Source of the DNA: Candidatus Aegiribacteria sp.
GTDB taxonomy: Bacteria > Fermentibacterota > Fermentibacteria > Fermentibacterales > JCC-6
Reading direction: 5' to 3'
Assembly (NCBI GenBank): GCA_030594645.1
Contig: JAUVEU010000027.1
Location: forward strand, 1-33,418
DNA: 33,418 bases
The notes beneath the pieces were generated by a model. It was not told where the DNA came from. It ran no database searches and saw only the letters and a list, made by a program, of their open reading frames with translations. Positions 7,178 through 32,910 of this stretch are shown piece by piece (positions within the stretch are counted from its first letter, which is position 1; each line of letters starts with the position of its first letter). The translations under genes and the position numbers were made by a program.

Positions 7178-8547
7178 ACCCTTCTCGCTTTCAGAAGAGT
7201 TCTTTTGAGGTTTCGCGGTCCCAGAACCGTCCTGATGGTTCTGAATATTCTACTCGGTTGAAGGTAGAATTTCAGGAACGCCTTTTTCTTCATCTTTTCT
7301 ATCGAACCCGATGCAATTCCGTCAAGCGAATAGACAGATGTCTGAAAACAGTCAAATTCGCTGTAATCTTTGTTAATGAGTTCTTTAGTCATATCCCATA
7401 ACATGGTATGAGGAAAAGGAGTAGTGATGTCAAACACAGCATCGTCAAAAGGTTGTTTCGCAGCAAAATCAATTGTTCTTCTCATCTCTTCGATAGTCTC
7501 CCCCGGAGCACCAAGCATGAAATAGCCCTGCACGAATATTCCCCTGTCATTCGCCAGGCGCAAAGCCTTCTGTACACCCTCCACCGTTATACCCTTGTTG
7601 TAGATATCATCCAGAACTCTCTGCGAGGCAGATTCCACACCCATGTTGATTTTAGCAAGTCCGGCTTCTTTCATATGATCAAGCAGTTCTCCGCTCAGCA
7701 GATCCGCCCGCACATTACAGCACCATTTCAATTCAACACCCCGCGAAAGCATCTCATCGCATATTTCGTGGACCCATTCATGATCCAGTATGAAAGTGGA
7801 GTCCTCAAACATGAAAGCATTAATTCCGAATTTCTCTTTGAGATACTCAAGTTCATCAACAATATTGAACGGGGATCTCTTCCGTATTTTCTTTCCGAAT
7901 ATTTCGGAAAGGGTCGGCTGACAGAATGTGCATTTGAACGGACATCCCCTTGTCGCCATAACAGAGGTCCCGCGCAGAGATGAATCAACCCGATCCATCG
8001 AATACCAGCTTGAGAAGTACTTCTCCATATCAAAGATTGACCTGTCCGGAAATGGAAGAGAATCCAGATTCTCAGTGAGAAGCATGCCTGGATTTCTTCT
8101 TGTTTCATCACCCGACATCCAGCAGGCTCCGGGAATATCATCCCACCGTCCGGTTTCAAGAATTCGTGAAAATGCTATCTCTCCCTCACCGGAATAGACA
8201 AAATCTGATTTCATCCTCCTGAGTGTATCCTTAGGAAGTACGGTCGCATGTGGCCCCCCCACTGCAAGAACCGCACTTATTTCTGAACTCCGGACAATTT
8301 CCGCTACTCTTTCTGCGGCCTTCAATTGTGGAGTAACAAGAGATATTGCAATAAGATCAGGTTTGTAATTCAGCATCCTGCTTCTGAAAGATTTGAACGG
8401 ATCCTTCAGAAAGGACATGTCACACAGTTCTACTTCACATCCGGCTAATTTCGCCAGGGCGGACAGGCTCGCTATTCCAAGAGGCGGCTGACCGGAAGGG
8501 TACCGCGTTTCAGGGAAAACAAACAGAATTCTATTGAATGCAGGCAT
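7174..8547 (-). CDS. B12-binding-domain radical SAM protein (second copy)
   Basis: 457 residues. The N-terminal domain begins ILFVFPETRYPSGQPPLGIA and contains the cobalamin-domain-like strands DLIAISLVTPQ and AVLAVGGPHATVLP. The radical SAM motif is RGCPFKCTFCQP, CxxxCxxC, at about residue 200. The SAM-binding GxE region is INMGVESASQRVL, and YFMLGAPGETIEEM follows. It resembles the copy at 2575-4026 in order and motifs but is clearly diverged, so the two probably act on different substrates or steps. A good ribosome site (GGAGGAG, 4 nt before ATG) supports start 8547. It overlaps the upstream GT39 gene by 17 bp and the deacetylase by 4 bp. The reaction is not predictable beyond B12-dependent radical chemistry. 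Confidence 0.85.
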   Translation of the reverse strand: MPAFNRILFVFPETRYPSGQPPLGIASLSALAKLAGCEVELCDMSFLKDPFKSFRSRMLNYKPDLIAISLVTPQLKAAERVAEIVRSSEISAVLAVGGPHATVLPKDTLRRMKSDFVYSGEGEIAFSRILETGRWDDIPGACWMSGDETRRNPGMLLTENLDSLPFPDRSIFDMEKYFSSWYSMDRVDSSLRGTSVMATRGCPFKCTFCQPTLSEIFGKKIRKRSPFNIVDELEYLKEKFGINAFMFEDSTFILDHEWVHEICDEMLSRGVELKWCCNVRADLLSGELLDHMKEAGLAKINMGVESASQRVLDDIYNKGITVEGVQKALRLANDRGIFVQGYFMLGAPGETIEEMRRTIDFAAKQPFDDAVFDITTPFPHTMLWDMTKELINKDYSEFDCFQTSVYSLDGIASGSIEKMKKKAFLKFYLQPSRIFRTIRTVLGPRNLKRTLLKARRV

Positions 8548-22317: not shown

Positions 22318-22394
22318 GCCTCGATAGCTCAGTTGGCCAGAGCGGGTGGCTGTTAACCACTAGGTCCGAGGTTCGAGTCCTCGTCGAGGCGCCA
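22318..22394 (+). tRNA. tRNA-Asn (anticodon GTT)
   Basis: A full cloverleaf: acceptor GCCTCGA / TCGAGGC, D arm GCTC/GAGC, anticodon stem GGTGG/CCACT with loop CTGTTAA (anticodon GTT), T arm CGAGG/CCTCG with loop TTCGAGT, discriminator G and encoded CCA. The last 11 bases (22384-22394) are the attachment core of the element to the right and are repeated at 30715-30725, so integration leaves the tRNA intact. The end of the recombinase gene overlaps it on the other strand. Confidence 0.95.
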
Positions 22395-23801
22395 CTTCCC
22401 GATCTGCTCGAACCCCCCATTTCTGGTTGACATTCGGTAAATATATCTGAGCGCATCGACATGCAGATCGAAGACCATTTTATCATTACTCATCTCAACA
22501 TTACTGAATAAGTATCTGACTAAATCCCTCCTCTGGCTCCTGGGTCCATACTCAGCCAATCTTCGCATGTTGGTTAGCAGAGAGCTGATCTTAGGCTTTG
22601 TGATCTTCTGAGCATTCTTATCTTCAAGGATGCTTTTAACTTCCCGCATTCTTTCCTCAATCTTGGAATGCACCTCCGTCTGTTTCTCAATACGCTCAAA
22701 GTTCAGGATATACTCTTTGGATCCCTTGTCAAATTCAGGCAACGACCTTGATAATTCATATACCTCAGCTTTTATCTCTCTTGATCTCCTCGTTAACGCC
22801 ATAAGCTCACCCTTCAATTTCGGGATATCATCCAGAATGGACTTATTAACCATGTCTCTAAGCTTTGTGAGATAATCTTCGGAGGATATTACACGCTCTA
22901 TCACGCTATACGTAGCCTTATCAACATCTTCTGCGTCTATATGAAATCTATTTCTTCTACCTGGGTACATTTCCTCTGATTCGGAGCAACAGTCATTTAA
23001 GCAGGTGTAATAATAGTACGTTCGACCGTGCTGTTTGCCACTTCGGCTTCTCATCATCTCTCCGCAATATGCACAGACAGCAACATCCAACAGAAGGTAA
23101 AAGTGCCACTTGCCTTCCTTCTTCGTTGCAATGTTGCCTTTCTTCCGCAGAGCTTGTTTCCGTGCGTCCTGGACTTCATAGAAAAGTTCATTGTTAATGA
23201 TAGGTTCCCACGCTGCGTTTGTAACACGGAGAACTTTCTCTCCAGTTTTTTCATCGATAGCTGAATATTCCCTCAAGGCAATGTACTTTATATTCGTAAG
23301 CAGGGTTCTAACGACATTCTCTGTAATAGGTCCTCCTCCCATTCTCTTGCCTGTAGATCTTTGTATCCAATTCTTGTTTGTGTAACCCTTTCCAGAAATG
23401 TGCTTTGCTACTGCTGAATCCGATCCAAGCTCAAGATACTTCTTGAAGCCCTCTTCCACGATAAGGGCTTCCTTCTTGTTCACAATCAACGTTCCCGCAC
23501 TTAAAGGGTTTTTATTAAGATCATATCCTAGAATCGGTCTACCGCCGTTATACAAACCTTCCTGGGCACGGAATTGAGTGTTCTTTCTGTTTCTCTCACT
23601 CTTAATATCAAGCTCTAGTTTTGCGAGTGCCATTAATATGATAACCATCGCCTCACCTGTTGGCGTGCTTGTATCCAGACTCATCCTTGTGCAAATCAAT
23701 TCTGTATTGTTTTCTTTTAGATACTTGAAAAACTCTATGAATCCGGCAACATCACGTCCTAGACGGTCCCGATCTGTACACAACCGCCAAGTTTCACACA
23801 C
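22353..23801 (-). pseudogene. Large serine recombinase, major part (N-terminally truncated, C-terminus replaced by integration)
   Basis: 482 codons from GTG 23801. What remains of the catalytic domain is DRLGRDVAGF, then the family's DTSTPTGEAM and the helix ALAKLELDIKSERNR. The recombinase domain (YNGGRPILGYD, VRTLLTNIKYIA), a zinc ribbon (CAYCGEMMRS then CLNDCC) and a coiled-coil (about 330-410) follow. The first 60-80 residues with the nucleophilic Ser (YxRVS motif) are missing: an in-frame TGA directly precedes the GTG, and no such motif is readable upstream in any frame. At the other end the frame crosses the att core (coding WRLD) and gains nine residues from the antisense of tRNA-Asn. 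In the excised circle it would continue into the 30408-30743 frame. Integration target and att arms agree with it being the element's own integrase. Confidence 0.85.
22384..22414 (+). repeat. Left attachment site (core plus inner inverted arm)
   Basis: Core TCGAGGCGCCA (22384-22394) is the 3' end of tRNA-Asn. After one extra C comes the arm TTCCCGATCTGCTCGAACC (22396-22414), the inverse of 30696-30714 with one mismatch. The recombinase frame (minus) runs through both. Confidence 0.85.
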
Positions 23802-24205
23802 TCACTACATCGGGAATTCCTAACCTAGAGCGGTATCCATGCTACTCCCATCTACTTGTGTAGAGAGATCGTGTGGATAGTGTAGAGTAGTACGGCCCTG
23901 TATTACGCTACCAGGATTACAGTTACGGCGCATGAATGAGGACACGTTTAGGAATAGTGTAGACAAAGAGAGAACTCCTACTAGTTCTTGACAAATATTC
24001 CGAACTAATAGACAGTGATATACAGAGGTGGGGTACGTCTCAGCCAATCACTGCTTGTTTCTATCCTGTTGATTTCATAGATCATGTTACTTATTAATCG
24101 GATATTAAAGCAAGAACGCTTCTTCTGGAGTTTTGATGCGAGTGATATTTACGGTATGGAATAGGCTTCGATAGCATGATTACTCCACAGAAAGGATGTG
24201 GTGTA
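23802..24205. other. Non-coding stretch upstream of the truncated recombinase
   Basis: About 400 bp without a convincing gene. The missing recombinase N-terminus should lie here on the minus strand, but all three frames have stops and no YxRVS-type motif. A 75-codon minus-strand frame (23820-24047) looks non-coding. The deletion or rearrangement that removed the catalytic Ser therefore ends at about 23801. The right end carries the ribosome site of the next gene (AAAGGA). Confidence 0.5.
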
Positions 24206-24574
24206 ATGGAGTTATGGATACTTTCACTGATTGTCTTCGGTGCTGGGTTCATCGGTGGATCAATCAATGCAAGCGTGAGCGGGAACCTTCACCCATTTCC
24301 AAAAAGGATGTATGGAGTTCTCACCCCGGGATTCATCGTAACGGCAATCACAAGTGGGATTGCCGCATTCGTTTCCTGGGGATTATACGGGCCCTTTTCG
24401 ACAGCATATATAGTTGGAGGACCTTCGGGAACTGTGGCTTCGCAGAATGCAGGTCTAACGTTGTCAGCATTGGTTTCTGCAGTTCTTATTGGTGTTGGTG
24501 GTTCACGTTGGCTTACCAATGAAGCTGAGAAGCGGATGCTTAAAAGGAAGGTAGATGGTCAAGGCAGTAGTTAA
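24206..24574 (+). CDS. Small multi-pass membrane protein of unknown function
   Basis: About 122 residues from ATG 24206, which has AAAGGA nine bases upstream; the frame is open ten codons earlier. Three hydrophobic helices are visible: LWILSLIVFGAGFIGGSI, GFIVTAITSGIAAFVSWGL and LTLSALVSAVLIGVG, with a Gly-rich loop (IVGGPSGTVASQNAG) and a basic end (RMLKRKVDGQ). I do not recognise the family. It reads toward the patatin-like gene, which is on the other strand. Being island cargo next to a lipase with membrane helices, it could be a partner or an immunity-type protein, but nothing in the sequence shows that. Confidence 0.55.
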   Translation: MELWILSLIVFGAGFIGGSINASVSGNLHPFPKRMYGVLTPGFIVTAITSGIAAFVSWGLYGPFSTAYIVGGPSGTVASQNAGLTLSALVSAVLIGVGGSRWLTNEAEKRMLKRKVDGQGSS

Positions 24575-24659
24575 TTTGAATCACCTTCCTGTGATCACTA
24601 AGTATAGAACTTCGGAGGATTTCAAAGACAGAATCTAGATTTACATACAAGAATACCTA

Positions 24660-26258
24660 TCAGAGCTCCCTTCTCGAAGTGAGTCTATGCAATCGAGATA
24701 CGCTCAGTTTAGAAAATACATCTGTATTCTGACCGATTACTCGAAATACATACAGAGATGCGAGTGTCTGAGCATAAGCTCTGGCTATCAGACTTTTTGC
24801 AGTTTCCTGTGATATCTTGTCAAGAGATGTAGGAACTTCCTCTAAGTCTTTTGACATTTCGCATAACCTCTGGTAAGCAGGTAGGGTCTCCAAGGACTCC
24901 ATGTGTTTGATTTCGACTTTAACTGAGTAAGTATCAGGCATTTGATTCGATAATCCTATGAGTTTCCGAACGAATTCCGTATCATTTGTCTCAATACTCC
25001 CGCACTCGCGATCGTAAGTGTACTTTGCCACATAATCAGCGAGATCTGAAGCCCAAATACGGTACTTAGAGGGATCTCGAACTGAATTCAGTAATGCAAT
25101 TGAGGTTCTTCGGTAGAATTCACCTATATCCGCATTGCGGTTAATATCAACAATGATAGGCAAGCGAATAGAAGAACTATGTGTAGTAACCGTCTCATGT
25201 TGTATCCACTGCCTAAAGCTAGTTCGAAGATTTTCAAGTCGAGGCGATACAGTATTCTCATTCACGATTCTTACAATCCTGAGAAGTGTCGCTAACTCTG
25301 CGTAACCAGGTACGATAAATTTCCAAGAAGGTGAAGACGATAGCTGAGCAGAAGCGTTAACAACAATGCCTATTTCAGGTTTAACGGATCGACAATCATC
25401 TCCTTCTTTGAATACTCTATCCTCAATCAATGCTTGAGTCCCTAGGTTATTCCAAACGCCTCCATCAGAAAGGTATAAGGTGTCCTTAAGTGGTTTCATC
25501 ACTTCCATTATAGAGCCACCAAAGCTGAATCTCACCTCTTCCTTCTGTCTGAATTTCCTTAAAGAAACTCGCCTAGGAGGTATGCCTGGAAAAGCTGCTG
25601 AGGCTCTTACTATACCCGCTAGTAACATGTTGGGAGTTGAGATTCTCCTTCCAGATATGTGCTCATCAGTCGTGCTTAGTCTGATGTGAAGATAGCCACC
25701 GTTCCAGGTTGAGAAATAACAAGGTACTCCCATTGCTAGATCCGTGCTGCAGAAAACATGCTCAACGTTTCCGCTGTTCAATTCTCCAAGGCTATGTAGA
25801 GATCTGAATTTACCAAAGTAGCATTTTGACAGAAGTGCTTCGATTAGCATACCTCGACAGAGAATGAGTGCTATCCAGACACCAACAAGTGTAATCGTAA
25901 TAAGTGGCGAAGGTAGAGCACCAAGTATCGCAAGCACGACGAAGGCTACAGGCGGACAAAGAATTGTGATCAGAATGGTAAGTAATCGGGATTTTGTAAG
26001 AACACCTTTATATATGACTGCTTCGATGAGTTCCCTGGCAATTTCGTCAAATGAGTCGCTTGTCTCAGCCTCGAACTTGCATCGTGAGGCGATAAACGCA
26101 TTAGTGATTGAACCTCCAGATACTGAACTAATTTGTTCAACTCGAACATTCGCTCCTGAATCCACGATAGCGAGTAATGCACCTAACCCGAATAGGGTGG
26201 CTCGATGACCTCCACCGGACAATGTTATCCCTATTCTCTTCTTGTTAAGTTTGGTCAT
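24660..26258 (-). CDS. Patatin-like phospholipase with inserted membrane hairpin
   Basis: About 532 residues from ATG 26258 (TTG 26273 and GTG 26270 are alternatives). The oxyanion motif is ITLSGGGHRATLF. The nucleophile Ser47 lies in ISSVSGGSIT, where the first G of GxSxG is Ser. ASAAFPGIPPRR is typical of the family, and the catalytic Asp264 is in YLSDGGVWNN (DGG). Residues about 90-133 form two membrane helices (LLTILITILCPPVAFVVLAI, LITITLVGVWIALIL) inserted in the patatin fold. The 250-residue C-terminal part is unrecognised. Predicted activity is acyl hydrolysis of membrane phospholipids. An IS3-type copy ends 19 bp upstream, so the native promoter has been displaced. Patatin effectors occur in anti-phage systems, but no sensor gene is next to it here. 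Confidence 0.85.
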   Translation of the reverse strand: MTKLNKKRIGITLSGGGHRATLFGLGALLAIVDSGANVRVEQISSVSGGSITNAFIASRCKFEAETSDSFDEIARELIEAVIYKGVLTKSRLLTILITILCPPVAFVVLAILGALPSPLITITLVGVWIALILCRGMLIEALLSKCYFGKFRSLHSLGELNSGNVEHVFCSTDLAMGVPCYFSTWNGGYLHIRLSTTDEHISGRRISTPNMLLAGIVRASAAFPGIPPRRVSLRKFRQKEEVRFSFGGSIMEVMKPLKDTLYLSDGGVWNNLGTQALIEDRVFKEGDDCRSVKPEIGIVVNASAQLSSSPSWKFIVPGYAELATLLRIVRIVNENTVSPRLENLRTSFRQWIQHETVTTHSSSIRLPIIVDINRNADIGEFYRRTSIALLNSVRDPSKYRIWASDLADYVAKYTYDRECGSIETNDTEFVRKLIGLSNQMPDTYSVKVEIKHMESLETLPAYQRLCEMSKDLEEVPTSLDKISQETAKSLIARAYAQTLASLYVFRVIGQNTDVFSKLSVSRLHRLTSRREL

Positions 26259-26303
26259 ATCCAAACGCACCAATCTTGTGACCAGCCCCCATGTTTCCCT
26301 CCA

Positions 26304-27162
26304 CTATTTAAGATAGTTTCGGGAGCGAATTGACTGTGTATATTGTACTTCTCCATACCTTGGGTCAAGATCAGTTTTTGCTTCAGGTGCAGGTGGTTTG
26401 TAGCCCAACGAACTGTGCGGCCTGAAGCGGTTGTATTCCTGCCTCCATCTCTCAATCAGTACCTTGGCTTCGATAAGCGTGTCGAAGATCTCTCCATTCA
26501 ATAACTCGTCTCTGAACTTCCCATTGAACGATTCGATGTAACCGTTTTCCCACGGAGAACCCGGTTCAATGAAGAGCGTTCTCACTCCAACAGCCTTCAA
26601 CCACTCTCTAACAGCATGGGCAGTGAACTCCTATCCGTTATCCGACCTGATATGATCAGGTAATCCCCTCTCGATGAAGAGCTGCTCAAGCCTGTAGAGA
26701 ACATCGTCCGATCTCAGGCTCCTTGCTACATCTATAGTATGGCACTCCCTGGTGTACTCGTCTACCATCGTGAGCATCTTCAGCTTCTTTCCATCATGTG
26801 TTCTGTCCGCAACGAAGTCATAACTCCACACATGATTCCTGTGGGTGGGTCTCAGACGCACACAGGAACCGTCGTTCAGCCAGTAGTCGTCTACGCTTCG
26901 GTTGTCTCCTGGGTACCTTAAGACCCTCTTCACACCAGATCCTCTCAACACGCTTGTGATTGACCTTCCAACCTTCCCTTCTCAGTAGTATTGTAATCCT
27001 CCTGTAGCCGTACCTGCCGTACTGTGTGGCAAGATCGATCACTCTCTTCCGAACAGCCATGTCAAAGAAGATCATCTTAACACCGTATCTTTGTGTGGAT
27101 TTGTCCTGTCCGAGAACTCGGCAGGCTCTTCGCTGCGATACTCCAACCCGATCAACAACCAT
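26304..27162 (-). pseudogene. IS3-family transposase orfB, broken
   Basis: The reading frame is a DDE integrase-type OrfB: MVVDRVGVSQRRACRVLGQ, YGRYGYRRITILLRREGW and NHKRVERIW at the start, then VWSYDFVADRTHDG, the first Asp of the catalytic triad, HIRSDNG (second Asp), and PGSPWENGYIESFNGKFRDE (catalytic Glu), ending EYNRFRPHSSLGYKPPAPE. A frameshift separates residues up to PKRRRL from the rest (near 26918), and a TAG (26631-26633) replaces the codon after DNG where the family has Pro or Ser. Both catalytic halves are present but cannot be joined. OrfB would normally be reached from orfA by a -1 slip near CCCAAAG. Confidence 0.85.
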
Positions 27163-27191
27163 CTCTACTGCCCGGCGACGCTTCGCCGGGC

Positions 27192-27467
27192 TCAGAACTT
27201 TGGGTCGGCTATTTCCTTGAGGATAGCTATGTCCAGAGCCTGATTAGCCACAATATTCTTAAGTCGTGTCTCACGCTCAAGCTCCTTCAGACGTTTCGCC
27301 TGGTCAAGCCTGAGACCTCCGTACTCTTTTCTCCAGCGGTAGTAAGTCTGTTCGGTAACGCCCAGCTTGCGAACCGCCTGAGCAACGGTAGATCCATTGG
27401 AGATCTCAACCTCTGCTTCTCTCAGCTTGCGGATGATCTGCTCTGTGGTGTAACGCTTCCTGCCCAT
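27192..27467 (-). CDS. IS3-family transposase orfA
   Basis: 91 residues with an N-terminal helix-turn-helix: RYTTEQIIRKLREAEVEI, VAQAVRKLGVTEQTYYRWRKEYGG, then the leucine-zipper part RLKELERETRLKNIVANQALDIAILKE that mediates OrfA-OrfB contact. It is the DNA-binding partner of the transposase and is intact, with GAGG upstream of ATG 27467. On its own it cannot transpose because orfB is broken. Confidence 0.9.
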   Translation of the reverse strand: MGRKRYTTEQIIRKLREAEVEISNGSTVAQAVRKLGVTEQTYYRWRKEYGGLRLDQAKRLKELERETRLKNIVANQALDIAILKEIADPKF

Positions 27468-27536
27468 TTATTGCCCTCCTCAAGTCGTAGCCACACTAAC
27501 ATAACGTGTGGACTAGTTTCCGGGGGGCAGGTCACA

Positions 27537-27836
27537 TATAGTTTACATGCCAGATTGTCTTAGAGATATGAGATTCACGTGATCAAAGGGATGAATTTTG
27601 AATGTACCCATATCAAAGAGTAACATGTAGAAGTCGGATATGTGCTGTACTCCAGAGAAAAGTACTAGAGTGATGATTCTCGGAGAATGCGAGTAGGACT
27701 CCATACAAGATACTAATCCATGCGGAGAATTTGGTGTTTTGCATGTGCTGGTGAGGGGGGAGGTTAGTACAAGTATAGAATATTGCAGATAGACCACAGA
27801 AGGTATCTTGTATAACGCTTATGAAAGGAGAAGGTT
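27537..27836. other. Intergenic stretch between IS and unknown gene
   Basis: 300 bp, AT-rich. An 84-codon minus frame here (27543-27797) has no coding character. The last part has AAGGAG before ATG 27837 and a TATAAC-like element at about 27811 that may be a -10 box. No RNA gene or repeat is seen. Confidence 0.4.
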
Positions 27837-28649
27837 ATGGGCAGTGATTGTCCGACAACTAGCCATGTGAATGACTCGATGAACAATACCGTAGCTGAAC
27901 AAGAGTCGCTGGCAACACAGGAAGAGCTTGAGAATGCATTCAAACTGAGCGATGGATTGCGCTATATCAAGAATGATACATTTGTTGCAGATCCATCCCT
28001 ACTACTTGGCTTTGTCTACTATGAGATGACCAATTCGGAGGAGCTCAGTGCATTTCTCACAGCGGTTGAAGTAGATGTTGCCGAATCATCGGTTCTTACT
28101 GCCCCGCAGACTGTATCAGAGCTGATTATCGACTCAAGAATCAGTGGATCAACCAATATCTTTTCACTTATTTCTCTTTCTGCAGGTCAAGACGAGGTGG
28201 TTGAGCTAAGGGTAATCAATAACGTAACTGCTCGTGCAATCACGAGAGGGAAAGAATGGAATAACGCGCTTTCAGAATGGATGGACAATAGTATGTCCAT
28301 AAGACTAATTGAGAATCCTAATGTCAGTTCAATCACCATCGTTACGGGTGTAGTCCAGAAGTACATAACGAGCAAGAAATTTAGTAAATTCGAAGCTGGA
28401 ACGAAGGGCGGTGCATTTGGCATTAATGTAGCAGGGAAGCTCTACACAAGTTCATCAGACTTCAAATTGGATATCATCTATGGGATTGACCTAGCGACAA
28501 TTGATGTCAGAGGTGTTGATGTCCAGGAGATTTCTAGACGCGTTGCAGAGGGTAAGGTAATAAGGCAGGTTGAAGAGTTAAAACTCCGTGATCAACTCTT
28601 CGATAAAATGGCTATGAGAAGTAAGTCGGTCTTCCCTCTAACATGTTAG
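27837..28649 (+). CDS. Unknown island protein, 270 residues
   Basis: Clear coding frame with the ribosome site AAGGAG. I do not recognise a family. The first 35 residues are polar and have one Cys (MGSDCPTTS), without a signal peptide. The middle is beta-rich with alternating hydrophobic residues: SSITIVTGVVQKYITSKKF, a Gly-rich turn GTKGGAFGINVAGK, then FKLDIIYGIDLATIDVRG. The end is a charged helix (VQEISRRVAEGKVIRQVEEL). That strand-turn-strand layout is loosely like the pore-forming N-domains of gasdermins, which bacteria use in anti-phage defence, but the likeness is visual, no protease gene is adjacent, and I do not rely on it. It lies between the IS and the TAC module. Confidence 0.65.
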   Translation: MGSDCPTTSHVNDSMNNTVAEQESLATQEELENAFKLSDGLRYIKNDTFVADPSLLLGFVYYEMTNSEELSAFLTAVEVDVAESSVLTAPQTVSELIIDSRISGSTNIFSLISLSAGQDEVVELRVINNVTARAITRGKEWNNALSEWMDNSMSIRLIENPNVSSITIVTGVVQKYITSKKFSKFEAGTKGGAFGINVAGKLYTSSSDFKLDIIYGIDLATIDVRGVDVQEISRRVAEGKVIRQVEELKLRDQLFDKMAMRSKSVFPLTC

Positions 28650-28918
28650 GGAGTATCCTGGTGTACAAACTACCTTTGCATCTAAGATATGACTTTTTTA
28701 GCGTACAATTCCGCTCAGTTTTACACGGCAAACCATTTCATCGACGGAATAAGCTATACCATTCTCCATTCCTCATTATACTCTCCATCATGTGTATAAC
28801 CAATTTTGAGATGCCGACTAAATCTAGGTTGGTTAGTATGTGTGGGGTTGTGTATACTCACCCTTAGTAGTAATTTATTTAGCACTAAGTGACTGACTAG
28901 ATTCATTGTATATTAACC
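28650..28918. other. Intergenic stretch before the TAC module
   Basis: About 270 bp of AT-rich DNA. Short frames here have no family-like features. It ends at the -35 box of the TAC promoter. No terminator hairpin for the upstream gene is obvious. Confidence 0.4.
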
Positions 28919-28947
28919 TTGACAATATAGCCACTTGGCTATATGAT
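28919..28947 (+). promoter_or_regulatory. TAC promoter with operator palindrome
   Basis: TTGACA (28919-28924) and TATGAT (28942-28947) are 17 bp apart, close to the sigma-70 consensus. The spacer is filled by a perfect palindrome ATATAGCC-ACTT-GGCTATAT (28925-28944) that runs into the -10 box, the expected place for the HigA-type antitoxin to bind and repress. Transcription should begin at about 28954, only some 4 nt before the toxin ATG. Confidence 0.75.
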
Positions 28948-28957
28948 GGGGAACTAA

Positions 28958-29371
28958 ATGCCTGGATATGATGTTCTACTATGGTCAAGGGATTCATATG
29001 ATCCGCATAACTGGCCTGATACTGAAGTTGGAAGAAAAATGAAACGCTTAACCAGGGATCACTCAATCAATATGCAAAACTTCGATATAAAGATTAGACT
29101 TATTCAAGATGAGATAATTGGTAAGAATGCATTCCAAGATTTACAGAATACTCGGAATATTAAGAGTCTAGGTTCAGCTTGTGGAACTCAGCATACTTCT
29201 CTTTGGGAAGTGAAATGCCCTAAAACAAGCAAGGAAGGAGTTCTACGGGTGTATTTCTCTATCTCAAGTAAGTATAGAGATACGATAGTTATTCTAGATG
29301 GAGAATTTAAGACAGAGAAAGAAGCAGATTACTCCATGGCATGTACTCGCTTAAGAGAGGGACCAGTTTAA
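28958..29371 (+). CDS. RelE/HigB-like toxin of a TAC module
   Basis: 137 residues from ATG 28958; ATG 29039, with a better ribosome site (GGAAGAAAA), would give 110. The C-terminal half has the RelE/HigB pattern: NIKSLGS, SLWEVKCP, VLRVYFSIS, TIVILDGEFKTEKEAD and a final A..RL helix. Toxins of this fold cut mRNA on the ribosome. The next genes are a Xre antitoxin and a SecB-like chaperone, the order of the Mycobacterium tuberculosis HigB1-HigA1-Rv1957 TAC. The promoter predicts a near-leaderless toxin start, which would favour weak toxin synthesis or the internal start. The stop shares one base with the antitoxin start (TAATG). Confidence 0.72.
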   Translation: MPGYDVLLWSRDSYDPHNWPDTEVGRKMKRLTRDHSINMQNFDIKIRLIQDEIIGKNAFQDLQNTRNIKSLGSACGTQHTSLWEVKCPKTSKEGVLRVYFSISSKYRDTIVILDGEFKTEKEADYSMACTRLREGPV

Positions 29372-29937
29372 TGCAAGATCTGAAATACGATACAAGCTGG
29401 GAAGAAGCATTGGAATCAGAAGAATTCATGAGAAGCCTTACAGGAGATTTAGTCTTCGAAGCTGTGCGAAGGAGAATAGAGTTAGGCTTATCTCAAAAAG
29501 ACTTAGCTGATAAGATCAATACAACCCAGTCAGTAATATCCCGTTTTGAAAATCTTGGGCGACAGCCAAGCATCAGTTTCCTCGAGAGGATAGCTAAGGC
29601 TCTCGACATGAAGTTCAGTGCAACACTGAATGGGGAGTATATGTATGTAGTTCCCTATCGTCTACAGTCATTTGTGAAGTCAAATTCCGAAGTACAAGAA
29701 GTGCCTGTCAAAAATTTCCTCACAAGTACATTATCTGATTATTTGGATGCCTGTGCTCGTAACACTTGGAAAGTGATTCATACTCAACAATTAGAAGTAA
29801 GAGAAGAACAGGGACTGTATCATATACAGAATGGTGCTTTAGATTCTCCAGAATGGCTTCCATCGAAAATTCCAGGTAGAGATATTCTTGAAGACACCTC
29901 TATTTCAGATGATCTTCAGAGTCTTGCGGAGATGTGA
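29371..29937 (+). CDS. Xre-family antitoxin with C-terminal chaperone-addiction extension (HigA type)
   Basis: 188 residues from ATG 29371. A HTH_3 domain at about 28-80 (VRRRIELGLSQKDLADKI, TTQSVISRFENLGRQPSI, LERIAKALDMKF) is the DNA-binding part. The remaining 100 residues are an extension of unusual length for HigA (EYMYVVPYRLQSFV, VPVKNFLTSTLSDYLDA, TWKVIHTQQLEVREEQ). In TAC systems such a tail (chaperone addiction, ChAD) makes the antitoxin unstable until SecB binds it. The palindrome in the promoter is the likely operator. The stop overlaps the chaperone reading frame. The frame could start at 29341, but AGAGGGA lies 8 bases before 29371. Confidence 0.82.
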   Translation: MQDLKYDTSWEEALESEEFMRSLTGDLVFEAVRRRIELGLSQKDLADKINTTQSVISRFENLGRQPSISFLERIAKALDMKFSATLNGEYMYVVPYRLQSFVKSNSEVQEVPVKNFLTSTLSDYLDACARNTWKVIHTQQLEVREEQGLYHIQNGALDSPEWLPSKIPGRDILEDTSISDDLQSLAEM

Positions 29938-29942
29938 GAAAT

Positions 29943-30386
29943 ATGAAATCACTGAATACTGAAGCATATAAGAAGTTTATCGAAGAAGTAGAACTAAAGA
30001 GAATCACAAATGTTCTTGGTCGTTATAGACGCACTGGAGATTTCTCGGAAAGCAAGAAGAAAACTGAACTCACCGTAGAAACTGCTCGAGCATCCTTCGA
30101 TCCTCCTTATATTCATTCTGAGAACAATCTTGCTATACCCGTTGGATATAGAATTGAAGTGAAACTTGAGGATGATCTTCTTGCTGAATTTGAATATCAT
30201 TACGAGGTTGTATTCGTTGTTGATGACAATACAGTAGTCGAGAATGCATTAGAAGATACTGATCTCGTTGAGTTTTTAACTGGTTATCAGATGGATAAGC
30301 TAATTTGGTCTTACCTTAGAAGTAATCTCTCGGAGACATGCTCTCGTATGGGGATCAGACAAATTGTTCTTCCACTACTGCGATAA
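29943..30386 (+). CDS. SecB-like chaperone of the TAC module
   Basis: 147 residues from ATG 29943 (GTG 29934, overlapping the antitoxin stop as GTGA, is an alternative). Its C-terminal half matches the SecB pattern: IEVKLEDDLLAEFEYHYEVV, the strand FVVDDNT, then the helix LIWSYLRSNLSETCSRMG and RQIVLPLL, comparable to the YAREC...SRG.FP.L.L stretch of SecB. In TAC systems the chaperone keeps the antitoxin folded, and in Mtb Rv1957 it can also replace SecB in export. Third position after toxin and antitoxin supports the call. It ends 21 bp from the convergent recombinase fragment. Confidence 0.75.
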   Translation: MKSLNTEAYKKFIEEVELKRITNVLGRYRRTGDFSESKKKTELTVETARASFDPPYIHSENNLAIPVGYRIEVKLEDDLLAEFEYHYEVVFVVDDNTVVENALEDTDLVEFLTGYQMDKLIWSYLRSNLSETCSRMGIRQIVLPLLR

Positions 30387-30407
30387 CTCATACACTTTCA
30401 TCTTGAG

Positions 30408-30743
30408 TCAACGAAGTGTTCTCTCCGTGATTATCTGCCTATTCCAGTAGTCTCCCATCGCTAGGATACTCCTTTTCTTGCCTTCAGGCATCTTCAGTAG
30501 TACCATCCATTGGTTAACTCTTGCCCTTGAAATCCCATGTTTTCTGGCGAGTTCTGCCTGGTTCAACCCCTCCCTCCTCATTTCATCTGCAAGCTCCATG
30601 GCGTAAATGAGCGGATTCCGATAAGTCTTATGGGGCTTTGAGTTAGTAATCCTTAAAGGGAGTTGATATTCCAGTTCCAAGATCGGTCCACCAAAGGTTC
30701 GAGTAGATCGGGAATCGAGGCGCCAAACAGTGCCACCCACCAT
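30408..30743 (-). pseudogene. Serine recombinase C-terminal fragment with helix-turn-helix
   Basis: 111 codons. Residues 39-110 are a helix-turn-helix like that at the C-terminus of many recombinase-family proteins: NPLIYAMELADEMRREGLNQ, ELARKHGISRARVNQWMVLLKM, then GDYWNRQIITERTLR. Residues 7-10 are WRLD, coded by the att core, in the same frame as WRLD of the truncated recombinase at 22353-23801. Residues 11-16 (SRSTRT) come from the inverted arm, and 1-6 from DNA outside the element. The frame alone has no ribosome site, so it is probably silent when integrated and forms the last 101 residues of the recombinase when the circle is closed. A related, frameshifted fragment is at 32606-32910. 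Confidence 0.8.
30696..30725 (+). repeat. Right attachment site (inner inverted arm plus core)
   Basis: Arm GGTTCGAGTAGATCGGGAA (30696-30714) is the inverse of 22396-22414 with one mismatch. The core TCGAGGCGCCA (30715-30725) repeats the last 11 bases of tRNA-Asn in direct orientation. The same layout, GGTTCG then 13 bases then the core, recurs at 32881-32910. Confidence 0.85.
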
Positions 30744-30783: not shown

Positions 30784-32478
30784 CTATCTCAATAGACACA
30801 GACCAGTGGTTTCAGAAATCCCATCGGATTGAATTCTGCATAAGTAAAGTCCTGCCGAAACAAGCTCACTGTTCTCTTTCCTTCCATCCCAGACGATGGT
30901 GTGCTGACCAGTTCCGAGTTCTGAATTCTCAAGTGTTCTGACGATCCTTCCAGACAGATCGTATACTGTAACTGACGTCCATCCCGGATCGGAAAGCTCG
31001 AAAGATATCGATGCCGTAGAGTAGAATGGATTCGGACTGGCGCAAAGAGCAAGCCTGCTGGAAGGTTCCAGATTGATACCAGTTTGAGTAACTGTGAAGT
31101 TGATAGTATCTGCTGCAACAGCAGTTCCGCCATCGAAGGAAGTTACTATCAGTTCATTAGGGCCTACATCAGCATAGAAATAATCTTCACGGTAGGTGTA
31201 CTTCAGACCGGTCCCGAAGGCGTATAGTTTCCAATCTTGACCGGCTATGTAGACAACCCCGTCGGTAATGCCGGGGCTGCCAGCAAACCAAGATCCACCA
31301 GTCTTGTAAGACCAGACTTCAGCTCCGGTATCACAATCAAGAGCGATTACTCGTGCACTGTCGTCTGGAGCAAATAGTTCTCCATAAAAAACAAGGCCAT
31401 CAGCTATACCTGAAGAGCCGTGTTGCATGCCCGGAACCGACCAGACGATTCCGCCATCTGATGTGTCGAGACAGTAGTACGTATCTAGCTGATCTGCAAA
31501 ATACAACCTGCTATCGTGATAGGCTGGTGTAGCAGTTATTGAATAAAACTCGGGAGAAACCGGAGATTCCCATACCGTTATGCCGGTCATGGCGTCGATG
31601 GCAAAGGTAGATCCATAGACACCGTTTATGTATATAATGCCGTCATGGACCACCGGAGATGAATCCCAGTAGCCCTCGAAGGCATCCGTATTCTCCCAGA
31701 TAATCGCTCCAGTAAGAGCGTCCAGGGCATACAAAGGAGTCTGCTGATTAGTCGCATTTGTTGGAATAAAGACCATATCGTCCCGGACTGCCATGCAGCT
31801 TAATATATAACCTGAGAGCGTATCCCTCCATATTTCTGTACCTGCGTATGCGTCAAGACAGGAGATGTAAGAACCATTTGAATGGTGTGTCCCACAGTAT
31901 ACTCTTCCATCAGCTACCACAGGAGTACTTCCCCAACCATTTGCACCACCGAAAGCCCACATCCTTTCGCCTGTCAGGGCATCAAGGCACCAAATCGAAT
32001 CGCTGGCTGTGTAAAGGAAACCATCTTTCACTGTTACTGCATCGTCAGTGCAACCAGTATTGTATTTCCATATCAGTTCACCTGTAGCGGCATCCAGAGC
32101 ATAAAGCGAATCAGTACCCATGTTGGAAGAGTAGTAAACTATCCCATCGACCACCACAGGTGTGGGAAATTCATGCATATCTCCAGTTACTGATGCAGTC
32201 CAGAGGACAGTGTTGTCCATAGGGGCAGGAGACTCGGAGTAACCTGTGTGACAGTCGTTTGCCATATAGGTATACCAGTCGGTATTCAGCCTTGGAACCA
32301 AAACAACTGCTGCACCATTCAACGAATAATGAACTGAATCAGGAAGTTCATTCTCATTTTCTACAATGGCTCGGAGAGGGAGCCAGTCACCGTCGTAGGT
32401 CTCACCGTCAACTGGTTCTGTTATTGTGAGACTGGTGATGAATATCAAGATTGATGTAAGGAGTACTGCAAAATGCAT
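30784..32478 (-). CDS. Secreted PQQ-type beta-propeller protein with FlgD/type IX-like tail
   Basis: 564 residues. Signal peptide MHFAVLLTSILIFITSLTIT. At least seven repeats of the PQQ-propeller kind: LYALDAATGELIWKYNTG, WCLDALTGERMWAFGG, SCLDAYAGTEIWRDTLSG, LYALDALTGAIIWEN, FAIDAMTGITVWES, YCLDTSDGGIVWSVPG and IALDCDTGAEVWSYKTGG. These propellers bind proteins (BamB) or PQQ in dehydrogenases; dehydrogenase active-site residues are not apparent. The C-terminal 80 residues (CASPNPFYSTASISFEL to GLYLCRIQSDG...LLR) form a FlgD-like sorting domain, so the protein is exported and possibly cell-surface bound. GGAGGGCATT before ATG 32478 is a strong ribosome site. It sits between two att-like sites and could be cargo of an older element. 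Confidence 0.88.
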   Translation of the reverse strand: MHFAVLLTSILIFITSLTITEPVDGETYDGDWLPLRAIVENENELPDSVHYSLNGAAVVLVPRLNTDWYTYMANDCHTGYSESPAPMDNTVLWTASVTGDMHEFPTPVVVDGIVYYSSNMGTDSLYALDAATGELIWKYNTGCTDDAVTVKDGFLYTASDSIWCLDALTGERMWAFGGANGWGSTPVVADGRVYCGTHHSNGSYISCLDAYAGTEIWRDTLSGYILSCMAVRDDMVFIPTNATNQQTPLYALDALTGAIIWENTDAFEGYWDSSPVVHDGIIYINGVYGSTFAIDAMTGITVWESPVSPEFYSITATPAYHDSRLYFADQLDTYYCLDTSDGGIVWSVPGMQHGSSGIADGLVFYGELFAPDDSARVIALDCDTGAEVWSYKTGGSWFAGSPGITDGVVYIAGQDWKLYAFGTGLKYTYREDYFYADVGPNELIVTSFDGGTAVAADTINFTVTQTGINLEPSSRLALCASPNPFYSTASISFELSDPGWTSVTVYDLSGRIVRTLENSELGTGQHTIVWDGRKENSELVSAGLYLCRIQSDGISETTGLCLLR

Positions 32479-32605: not shown

Positions 32606-32910
32606 TCACCTCCGCAATTGTCTTTCAGTAACTAATTGTCTGCTCCAGTAATCTCCCATCTCCTCTATTTCAGAGATAAGGCTGTCAGGCAGTTTCAACA
32701 GATTGAGCATCTGGGTCACTCTTGCTCTCGATAAACCAAGTTTTCTGGCAAGATCAGCTCGACTCAATTCTTCCATCTCCATCATCAAGGACATTTCTCT
32801 GGCAAGTATGATTGGATTCCGGAAAGTCTTCTCGGTTTGCGTTTTATTTGATTAGTACTAGTTGTATCAAACCATAATATGGTTCGCTGAGAGACACTGT
32901 CGAGGTGCCA
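32606..32910 (-). pseudogene. Fossil recombinase C-terminal fragment with att-like core
   Basis: The minus strand from 32910 reads WHLDSVSQRT, matching WRLDSRSTRT of the 30408-30743 fragment, with the att core coded by TGGCACCTCGA (one change). About 16 nt are missing before the helix-turn-helix, so the rest lies in another frame: KTFRNPIILAREM, ELSRADLARKLGLSRARVTQ and MGDYWSRQLVTERQLRR. An internal ATG at 32794 could start a 62-residue protein, but the longer alignment shows a broken gene. The arm position is also kept: GGTTCG lies 19 bp from the core (32881 to 32900), as in the intact right att site. I read this as the remnant of an earlier integration of a related element. Confidence 0.75.

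Follow-up and report, generated by a model that had tools for sequence, protein, structure and literature searches.

A serine recombinase family of Candidatus Fermentibacterota that probably carries attP inside its own reading frame and would lose a ParB-like domain upon integration at tRNA genes

The stretch of DNA analysed here (the window; 33,418 nucleotides (nt) of contig JAUVEU010000027.1, Candidatus Aegiribacteria sp.) carries a tRNA-Asn gene whose 3' end appears to be the integration site of a mobile element. At the left end of this element (attL), the gene of a serine recombinase runs into the tRNA gene, and at its right end (attR) stands a reading frame coding for a linker and a helix-turn-helix (HTH) domain (Table 1). 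Both ends share an 11-nt core, TGGCGCCTCGA, of which exactly two copies are present in the window (none of 100 shuffles gave two), the left one being the 3' terminus of tRNA-Asn. An earlier reading of these letters, further called the original prediction, claimed that the recombinase frame passes through the core and that the right-hand frame passes through the second core in the same phase. We found both to be so. The recombinase frame on the minus strand ends ...GKWRLDEDSNLGPSG*, its tail lying in tRNA-Asn antisense, and the right-hand frame, 30408-30743, reads ...VWRLDSRSTRTFGG... into the HTH, with core phase identical to that of the left copy. The latter frame indeed contains core and HTH, but the ATG at which it opens belongs to the neighbouring unit, beyond the element, and is not a conserved start. 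The arms adjoining the two cores form a 19-nt inverted repeat with 95% identity, unnoticed in the original prediction, which is the dyad expected when one serine-integrase attachment site (attP) is cut at its centre.

Table 1. Features of the window with their positions and, where given, the basis of assignment
Feature	Position	Strand	Description	Basis
tRNA-Asn (GTT)	22318..22394	+	3' end, putative integration site (B' half; CCA is TGG on the minus strand)	ARAGORN, Rfam
Integrated element, attL-attR	22384..30725	.	8.3 kb	two cores and inverted arms
attL core TGGCGCCTCGA	22384..22394	-	W-R-L-D in the recombinase frame	
attR core TGGCGCCTCGA	30715..30725	-	W-R-L-D in the HTH frame	
P' arm of putative attP	22396..22414	-	last codons of the recombinase (GFEQIGK); inverted copy of 30696-30714	
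P arm of putative attP	30696..30714	-	CGAAC at +24 from TGG, 5 bp beyond its position in the tRNA	
Serine recombinase	22353..23801	-	N-terminally truncated; 9-residue tail is tRNA antisense	
C-terminal exon	30408..30725	-	linker and ParB/Noc-like HTH, end ...TERTLR*	
Second HTH unit	32609..32910	-	decayed; core now TGGCACCTCG; one-base frame shift between linker and HTH	
PQQ/BamB-like beta-propeller protein	30784..32478	-	cargo of the neighbouring recombinase-less unit	
Transposase frames (HTH_Tnp_1, rve_3)	26304..27467	-	inserted in the element	Pfam
Patatin-like phospholipase	24660..26273	-	element cargo	Pfam

The window is one case of a pattern found across Candidatus Fermentibacterota. Forty-two genomes of this phylum were searched, and related loci are present in Candidatus Aegiribacteria, Sabulitectum and other Fermentibacterota (Hyd24-12) assemblies. 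With a profile built from nine relatives (A2), recombinases were marked at 34 places in 19 genomes. Eleven of these, in 8 genomes, constitute the close family (E < 1e-50); the other 23 (E 4e-32 or weaker) stayed outside the family analysis except for loci L021, L023, L027 and L028. Nine close members run into a tRNA gene, five into tRNA-Asn and four into tRNA-Arg (eight genomes, window included), and the remaining two, in genomes G007 and G032, are followed by core and HTH. In all nine tRNA-tailed recombinases, the TGG codon starts on the last base of the tRNA and the frame goes on into its antisense strand. As the identity of family members to one of them, L024, is only 25-56% in the alignment, this shared phase is not a matter of recent copying.

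The window copy matches the Pfam families Resolvase (in part) and Recombinase above cut-off and Zn_ribbon_recom below it. L130, the 654-residue relative from G007, matches Resolvase and Recombinase above cut-off, with no zinc-ribbon match listed, and its model has long helices at residues 388-477. The nearest named relatives in NCBIfam are CcrB, XisF and CcrC, all far under their cut-offs (the CcrB score is 65.3 bits for the window copy and 147.5 bits for L024, at a cut-off of 900). Three viral relatives from IMG/VR (L200, L201 and L202) share 36-38% identity with the recombinase. In each of them, the frame runs on with unchanged phase into a tRNA or a tRNA-like contig end. The sole one with a recognised tRNA has the same-phase TGG at this tRNA; in the other two, the contig ends at or shortly past the core and a tRNA is not callable. 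The original prediction had named homologues that end at or before WRLD without an HTH as evidence against itself. There are no such homologues among the 11 close members, but no HTH was seen in the records of the three viral relatives, which may be fragments, and the four more distant recombinases L021, L023, L027 and L028 terminate without one.

The HTH domain is far more widespread than the recombinase. Its profile (A1; match defined as E <= 1e-3) found 227 matches in the 42 genomes, fragments and a few longer open reading frames (ORFs) counted in; 40 of the genomes are matched, 30 of them at E < 1e-30. The idea that HTH units are confined to the element of the window was thus rejected. In sequence comparison, ParB/Spo0J and Noc come closest to this profile (E about 1e-3 to 2e-3). 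Against the Pfam HTH_ParB cut-off of 22.6 bits, the HTH of the window scores 21.5, the second unit of the window 30.8 and the 654-residue relative 32.1. From the 227 matches, 111 distinct units were examined, and the core was sought by a DNA-only pattern, which detected it in 89. The HTH is in phase with the TGG of the core in 82 of these 89 units (79 open, 3 with a stop) and out of phase in seven, two of which, both in L059, are misplaced core calls with an in-phase core 16 nt upstream. Phase by chance is rejected by these numbers (binomial P = 3e-31). Because the units are related to each other, a better argument than the binomial P is presented by their varied linkers: phase is kept across lengths of 87, 90, 96, 99, 102, 105 and 111 nt. 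The core itself varies among 81 units, being TGGCGC in 37, TGGTAC in 29, TGGCAC in 11 and TGGCTC in 4.

Outside the phylum, an HTH remnant was found in Uabimicrobium; records of Sphaerochaetaceae and Dehalococcoidia contributed single contigs, which we suspect to be misbinned. The remnant (L135, Candidatus Uabimicrobium amorphum, 7959-8207) is a lone fragment of 82 residues beside an IS21-like gene pair. In IMG/VR, the HTH profile led to three pattern stretches, none of which was confirmed. Phage and plasmid collections contain 272 and 42 records matching the query, none over at least 80% of its length, and the HTH was reached by no match among the best 30 of the phage and the best 20 of the plasmid records.

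The HTH tail bears signs of selection at the protein level. In a set of 73 stop-free units, from which units with stops or with fewer than 88 codons were dropped, the ratio of nonsynonymous to synonymous substitution rates (dN/dS) is 0.05-0.40 in all 29 independent pairs, with a median of 0.23. The tail therefore is, or recently was, translated. AlphaFold2 gave the 105-residue tail an overall mean confidence (predicted local distance difference test, pLDDT) of 74.6, with block means of 84-93 at residues 41-90.

If both ends of the element are halves of one attP, the arms beside the recombinase core and beside the unit core should mirror each other. The reverse complement of the 14 nt beside the recombinase core was compared with the arms of 81 units. 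For all nine tRNA-tailed recombinases, the best unit arm has 1-3 mismatches per 14 nt; for shuffled arms, the mean is about 7, and no more than 0.3% of them come equally close. In eight of these nine cases, the best-matching unit also shares the kind of core, the exception being L017 (tRNA-Arg), matched best by a unit with a tRNA-Asn core. Among the loci examined, a partner consisting of core and HTH (2-5 mismatches per 20 nt) is present in the same genome for eight of the nine, and for four (the window, G007, G029 and G027) it lies on the same contig and strand. A search of the 42 whole genomes for the dyad found three matches (G009:C26, G030:C154 and G032:C56), the reversed control none; all three are at HTH units, two of them beside recombinase sequence. 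The whole attP, used as a DNA pattern in IMG/VR, gave no matches on two occasions.

The arms differ from the tRNA half in the position of a short motif. In 68 of 81 units, the distance of CGAAC from TGG is 24 nt (the unit pattern allowed only 23-26), and in 10 of 10 tRNAs that of [CT]GAAC is 19 nt. A shift of a motif by 5 bp between attP and attB is reported for a serine integrase in a section of PMC3783163, and the offset seen here (+24 versus +19) appears to be this attP/attB spacing of the zinc-domain motif of serine integrases. The attB motif is visible in the tRNA half; the left half is mostly without it.

Among relatives, an uninterrupted gene containing both parts, suggested by the original prediction as a check, does exist. 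In G007 (Aegiribacteria MLS_C; L014, L130), a single ORF of 654 amino acids (aa) joins the recombinase via ...EQIGKWR to the HTH, and its HTH_ParB match passes the Pfam cut-off. In the model of this fusion, another check suggested there, residues 581-630 form a confident separate HTH domain (block means 92-97), and the joint (W at 550) falls within a stretch, 544-574, under 50 pLDDT. The predicted template modelling score of 0.37 means that domain placement is not fixed by the model. The left arm of the fusion is of the window type, and the right arm together with the HTH is of a second type. The HTH sits at the expected right end of a 29-kb element, whose own recombinase is located at tRNA-Asn, at position 54 kb of the same contig; among four G007 loci searched, the arm of this recombinase best matches the right arm of the fusion (4 mismatches per 20 nt). 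The simplest interpretation is integration of a second element behind the first recombinase, which thereby received its HTH. The 29-kb element (G007:C4, 54-83 kb; L218) carries an Eco57I-type methylase, SNF2 and DEAD/MZB helicases and an AAA/ABC-type ATPase, a defence-island-like content that we take to be DISARM-like.

Three further states of the joint were seen. In G030, the end of a decayed recombinase crosses the joint in frame into the HTH linker, where the frame then breaks. In G032, the HTH frame reads upstream as GFGLIVIW, resembling GFEQIGKW, and the recombinase frame is shifted at the core; in our reading, the shift may have arisen within a G run some seven codons before it. In G009 and G017, just a short ..QIGKW is left before WRLxS.

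Based on these results, we propose, with a probability of roughly 0.8, that these loci encode a large serine recombinase with attP inside its own frame, and that integration strips it of a ParB-like HTH. The attP would lie at a flexible joint between the part composed of catalytic, zinc-ribbon and coiled-coil regions and the C-terminal HTH. In the circle, one gene would pass through P'-core-P into the HTH; that joining the ends at the core gives one continuous frame, as the original prediction held, agrees with the phase kept in 9 of 9 recombinases and 82 of 89 units and with the G007 fusion. Upon integration, which the anatomy of the loci places at the 3' CCA end of the tRNA, the recombinase at attL would get a short tRNA-antisense tail and the startless HTH exon would be left stranded at attR. 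This predicted exchange of the C-terminal domain for a short tail gained support from the fusion relative, the kept phase and the mirrored arms. A later element arriving at the same tRNA would put its own HTH exon behind the resident recombinase, and G007 looks like such an outcome. The full-length form may be the integrating one, and loss of the HTH may lock, alter or stabilise the integrated state, making the outcome a one-time, DNA-encoded switch. We infer that, most likely, the HTH-bearing form integrates and HTH loss stabilises the integrated state. A role of the HTH as a directionality factor is possible by analogy with engineered fusions of integrases to recombination directionality factors (RDFs), where, as described in part of PMC5737554, fusing such a factor to the C-terminus of a serine integrase alters the direction in which the enzyme works and favours excision. 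As these fusions favour excision, such a role would have the wrong sense for the circle.

Several observations weigh against our proposal. The window's own recombinase is without its catalytic N-terminus. Its match to Pfam Resolvase sets in only at position 68 of the 145-position profile, and the window holds no counterpart of residues 1-86 of the 654-aa relative, RVSD motif included; because Resolvase starts in the middle of the domain and these residues are absent, the window copy is not an active gene. The RVSD motif presumably holds the catalytic serine, which is missing here, and relatives carry RVSD or RVST. Only a single natural fusion has an intact frame, G032 being out of phase and G030 a pseudogene. 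Five of 89 units are truly out of phase and three have a stop, and 22 further units are coreless by the pattern used. For G026, no matching right arm turned up among the loci examined, and the units closest to its arm carry the core of another tRNA. Two of the three viral arms fail to match unit arms (6 mismatches), the third matching with 3, and the HTH was not found in four viral records with recombinases. A P'-like motif stands left of the core in only 8 of 88 units. Neither an excised circle nor a read pair nor an empty site in the same species came to light, and the role ascribed to the HTH is entirely inferred.

Other explanations of the in-phase HTH have to be weighed as well. The original prediction counted an independent HTH gene against itself, and recombinase-less units are indeed common: the 227 HTH matches far exceed the 11 close-family recombinases in 8 genomes, and 40 of 81 units hold some in-frame start codon within the linker. 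This favours the view that the HTH ORF is an independent small cassette gene overlapping the att site, its in-phase joint reflecting coincidence or descent. However, 24 of the 81 open units cannot start alone, as they have no ATG, GTG or TTG from the preceding stop to the domain, 50 are without ATG, and a Shine-Dalgarno-like motif is present at only 2 linker starts. Followed upstream from TGG, the frame stays open for a median of 12 codons, so that, given the missing starts, the tail is most simply translated as a part of the recombinase. Linkers of various lengths in phase with the core, together with the natural fusion ORF, speak against a free gene too. We rejected it as the whole explanation on the start-codon counts and the G007 fusion, and regard it as very improbable.

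Improbable as well, if slightly less so, is that the att site just happens to cover the end of the integrase gene, with a dispensable HTH tail whose exchange has no regulatory meaning. Seven of the nine tRNA-tailed recombinases are otherwise intact ORFs, which is in line with such a view, as are the three viral relatives, in which no HTH was seen behind the core. The purifying selection on the HTH and its spread through 40 of 42 genomes are not expected of a useless tail. An artefact of assembly or binning can practically be dismissed. Metagenome assemblies are the source of the loci, Uabimicrobium being the one exception among the titles, and 4 of 63 lie in records named for other phyla, yet one and the same architecture recurs across numerous assemblies and at both tRNA-Asn and tRNA-Arg.

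HTH units in the mapped loci are often arranged in tandem, in one direction and mostly with a spacing of 1-3 kb, with cargo between them. Besides the window, four arrays end at tRNA-Asn (L061, L069, L071 and L072). Tandem arrays of core, HTH and cargo, with up to 8 units in 16 kb (L058), also occur in other Fermentibacterota genomes (L058, L059, L060, L066 and L065); these stretches contain no recombinase of the family and have an integron-like look. The cargo includes Fic, AbiEii, AAA_14/DUF4143, histidine kinase, Por_Secre_tail and PQQ proteins, and nine of ten proteins tested have a Pfam match. Paralogous PQQ/BamB-like cargo is present in the window (30784-32478, where a C-terminal sorting-domain match scores under the Pfam cut-off), in L011 (6769-8478) and in L058, L067 and L068. 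Hairpins at or next to the core were noted in L066, L119, L123, L124 and L131, and similar ones stand beside tRNA-Asn in one genus (L231-L241).

The recombinase-less units may be either scars of serial integration or cassettes mobilised in trans. That the arrays are scars only, attR sites of old integrations and immobile now, is compatible with our proposal, and we give it even odds. Left of the core, 74 of 88 units have neither a P'-like nor a B-like motif (8 have the former and 6 the latter), so most units are attR-like, and some units contain stops or frame shifts. In 10 of 95 left flanks, against 1.7% of random places, a hairpin ends at the core, like those beside tRNA-Asn, and these hairpins look as if tRNA terminators had been displaced with each unit. 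Mere scars would hardly be under purifying selection within single arrays (dN/dS 0.05 in L059 and 0.16 in L058), and independent deletions hardly give short one- or two-gene units with similar ends. The rival view, which we offer as a tentative and rather unlikely possibility, is that every cassette starts with a startless C-terminal exon of the recombinase, the whole being a serine-recombinase counterpart of the integron in which the newest cassette, on inserting at the tRNA beside the resident recombinase, would complete this enzyme in frame with its own HTH and so set the activity of the enzyme.

As for the remaining genes of the element, no other named partner was found for the patatin-like phospholipase, and we take the transposase frames inserted next to it to be of IS3 type.

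If our proposal is true, self-splitting integration arose independently in bacteria, with an unrelated enzyme, and is not a peculiarity of archaeal tyrosine recombinases. Since an accessory domain would be removed and the enzyme not killed, large serine integrases, enzymes widely used in genome engineering, would have a natural switch written in DNA. Enzymes with and without the HTH should then differ in direction or efficiency, and the arrays would explain the phylum-wide gathering of short gene units at tRNA genes.

The closest likeness is to the suicidal tyrosine integrases of archaea, whose att site lies in the integrase gene and which can form chimeric halves between elements, as outlined in parts of PMC8371274. 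In the SSV1-type, pTN3 and pT26-2 integrases, integration splits the gene, as the anatomy of the loci suggests here. SSV1-type enzymes are archaeal tyrosine recombinases split into an N-terminal part and a catalytic C-terminal part, whereas the bacterial serine recombinase described here would keep its catalytic and core DNA-binding parts and shed an added HTH. A 2021 review calls self-disrupting recombinases exclusively archaeal. The original prediction knew of no described serine recombinase of this kind in a bacterial tRNA gene, and likewise no bacterial serine example was seen among the papers listed in the literature searched, which left most subscription journals outside. In mycobacteriophage BPs, according to sections of PMC4557955, attP lies in a coding frame and integration exchanges the C-terminus, changing the protein. 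There, a repressor gene is split and a degradation tag lost; here, it would be a recombinase gene and an HTH under selection. The integrase-RDF fusions mentioned above are man-made, while the fusion proposed here is natural and would be made and unmade by recombination itself.

Two further systems resemble the arrays. The staphylococcal cassette chromosome (SCC), whose Ccr recombinases are the nearest named relatives by NCBIfam, though far under cut-offs, forms tandem composite islands with and without a recombinase at one site. This site is the end of a protein gene, and SCC is not known to have an HTH exon for each unit. Integrons likewise line up short units, each of one or two diverse genes, and end at one site, as seen here in several genomes. 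They employ the tyrosine integrase IntI and folded attC sites, whereas the arrays of Fermentibacterota are associated with a serine recombinase and a tRNA anchor, the site of each putatively mobile unit consisting of core and arm within a coding exon.

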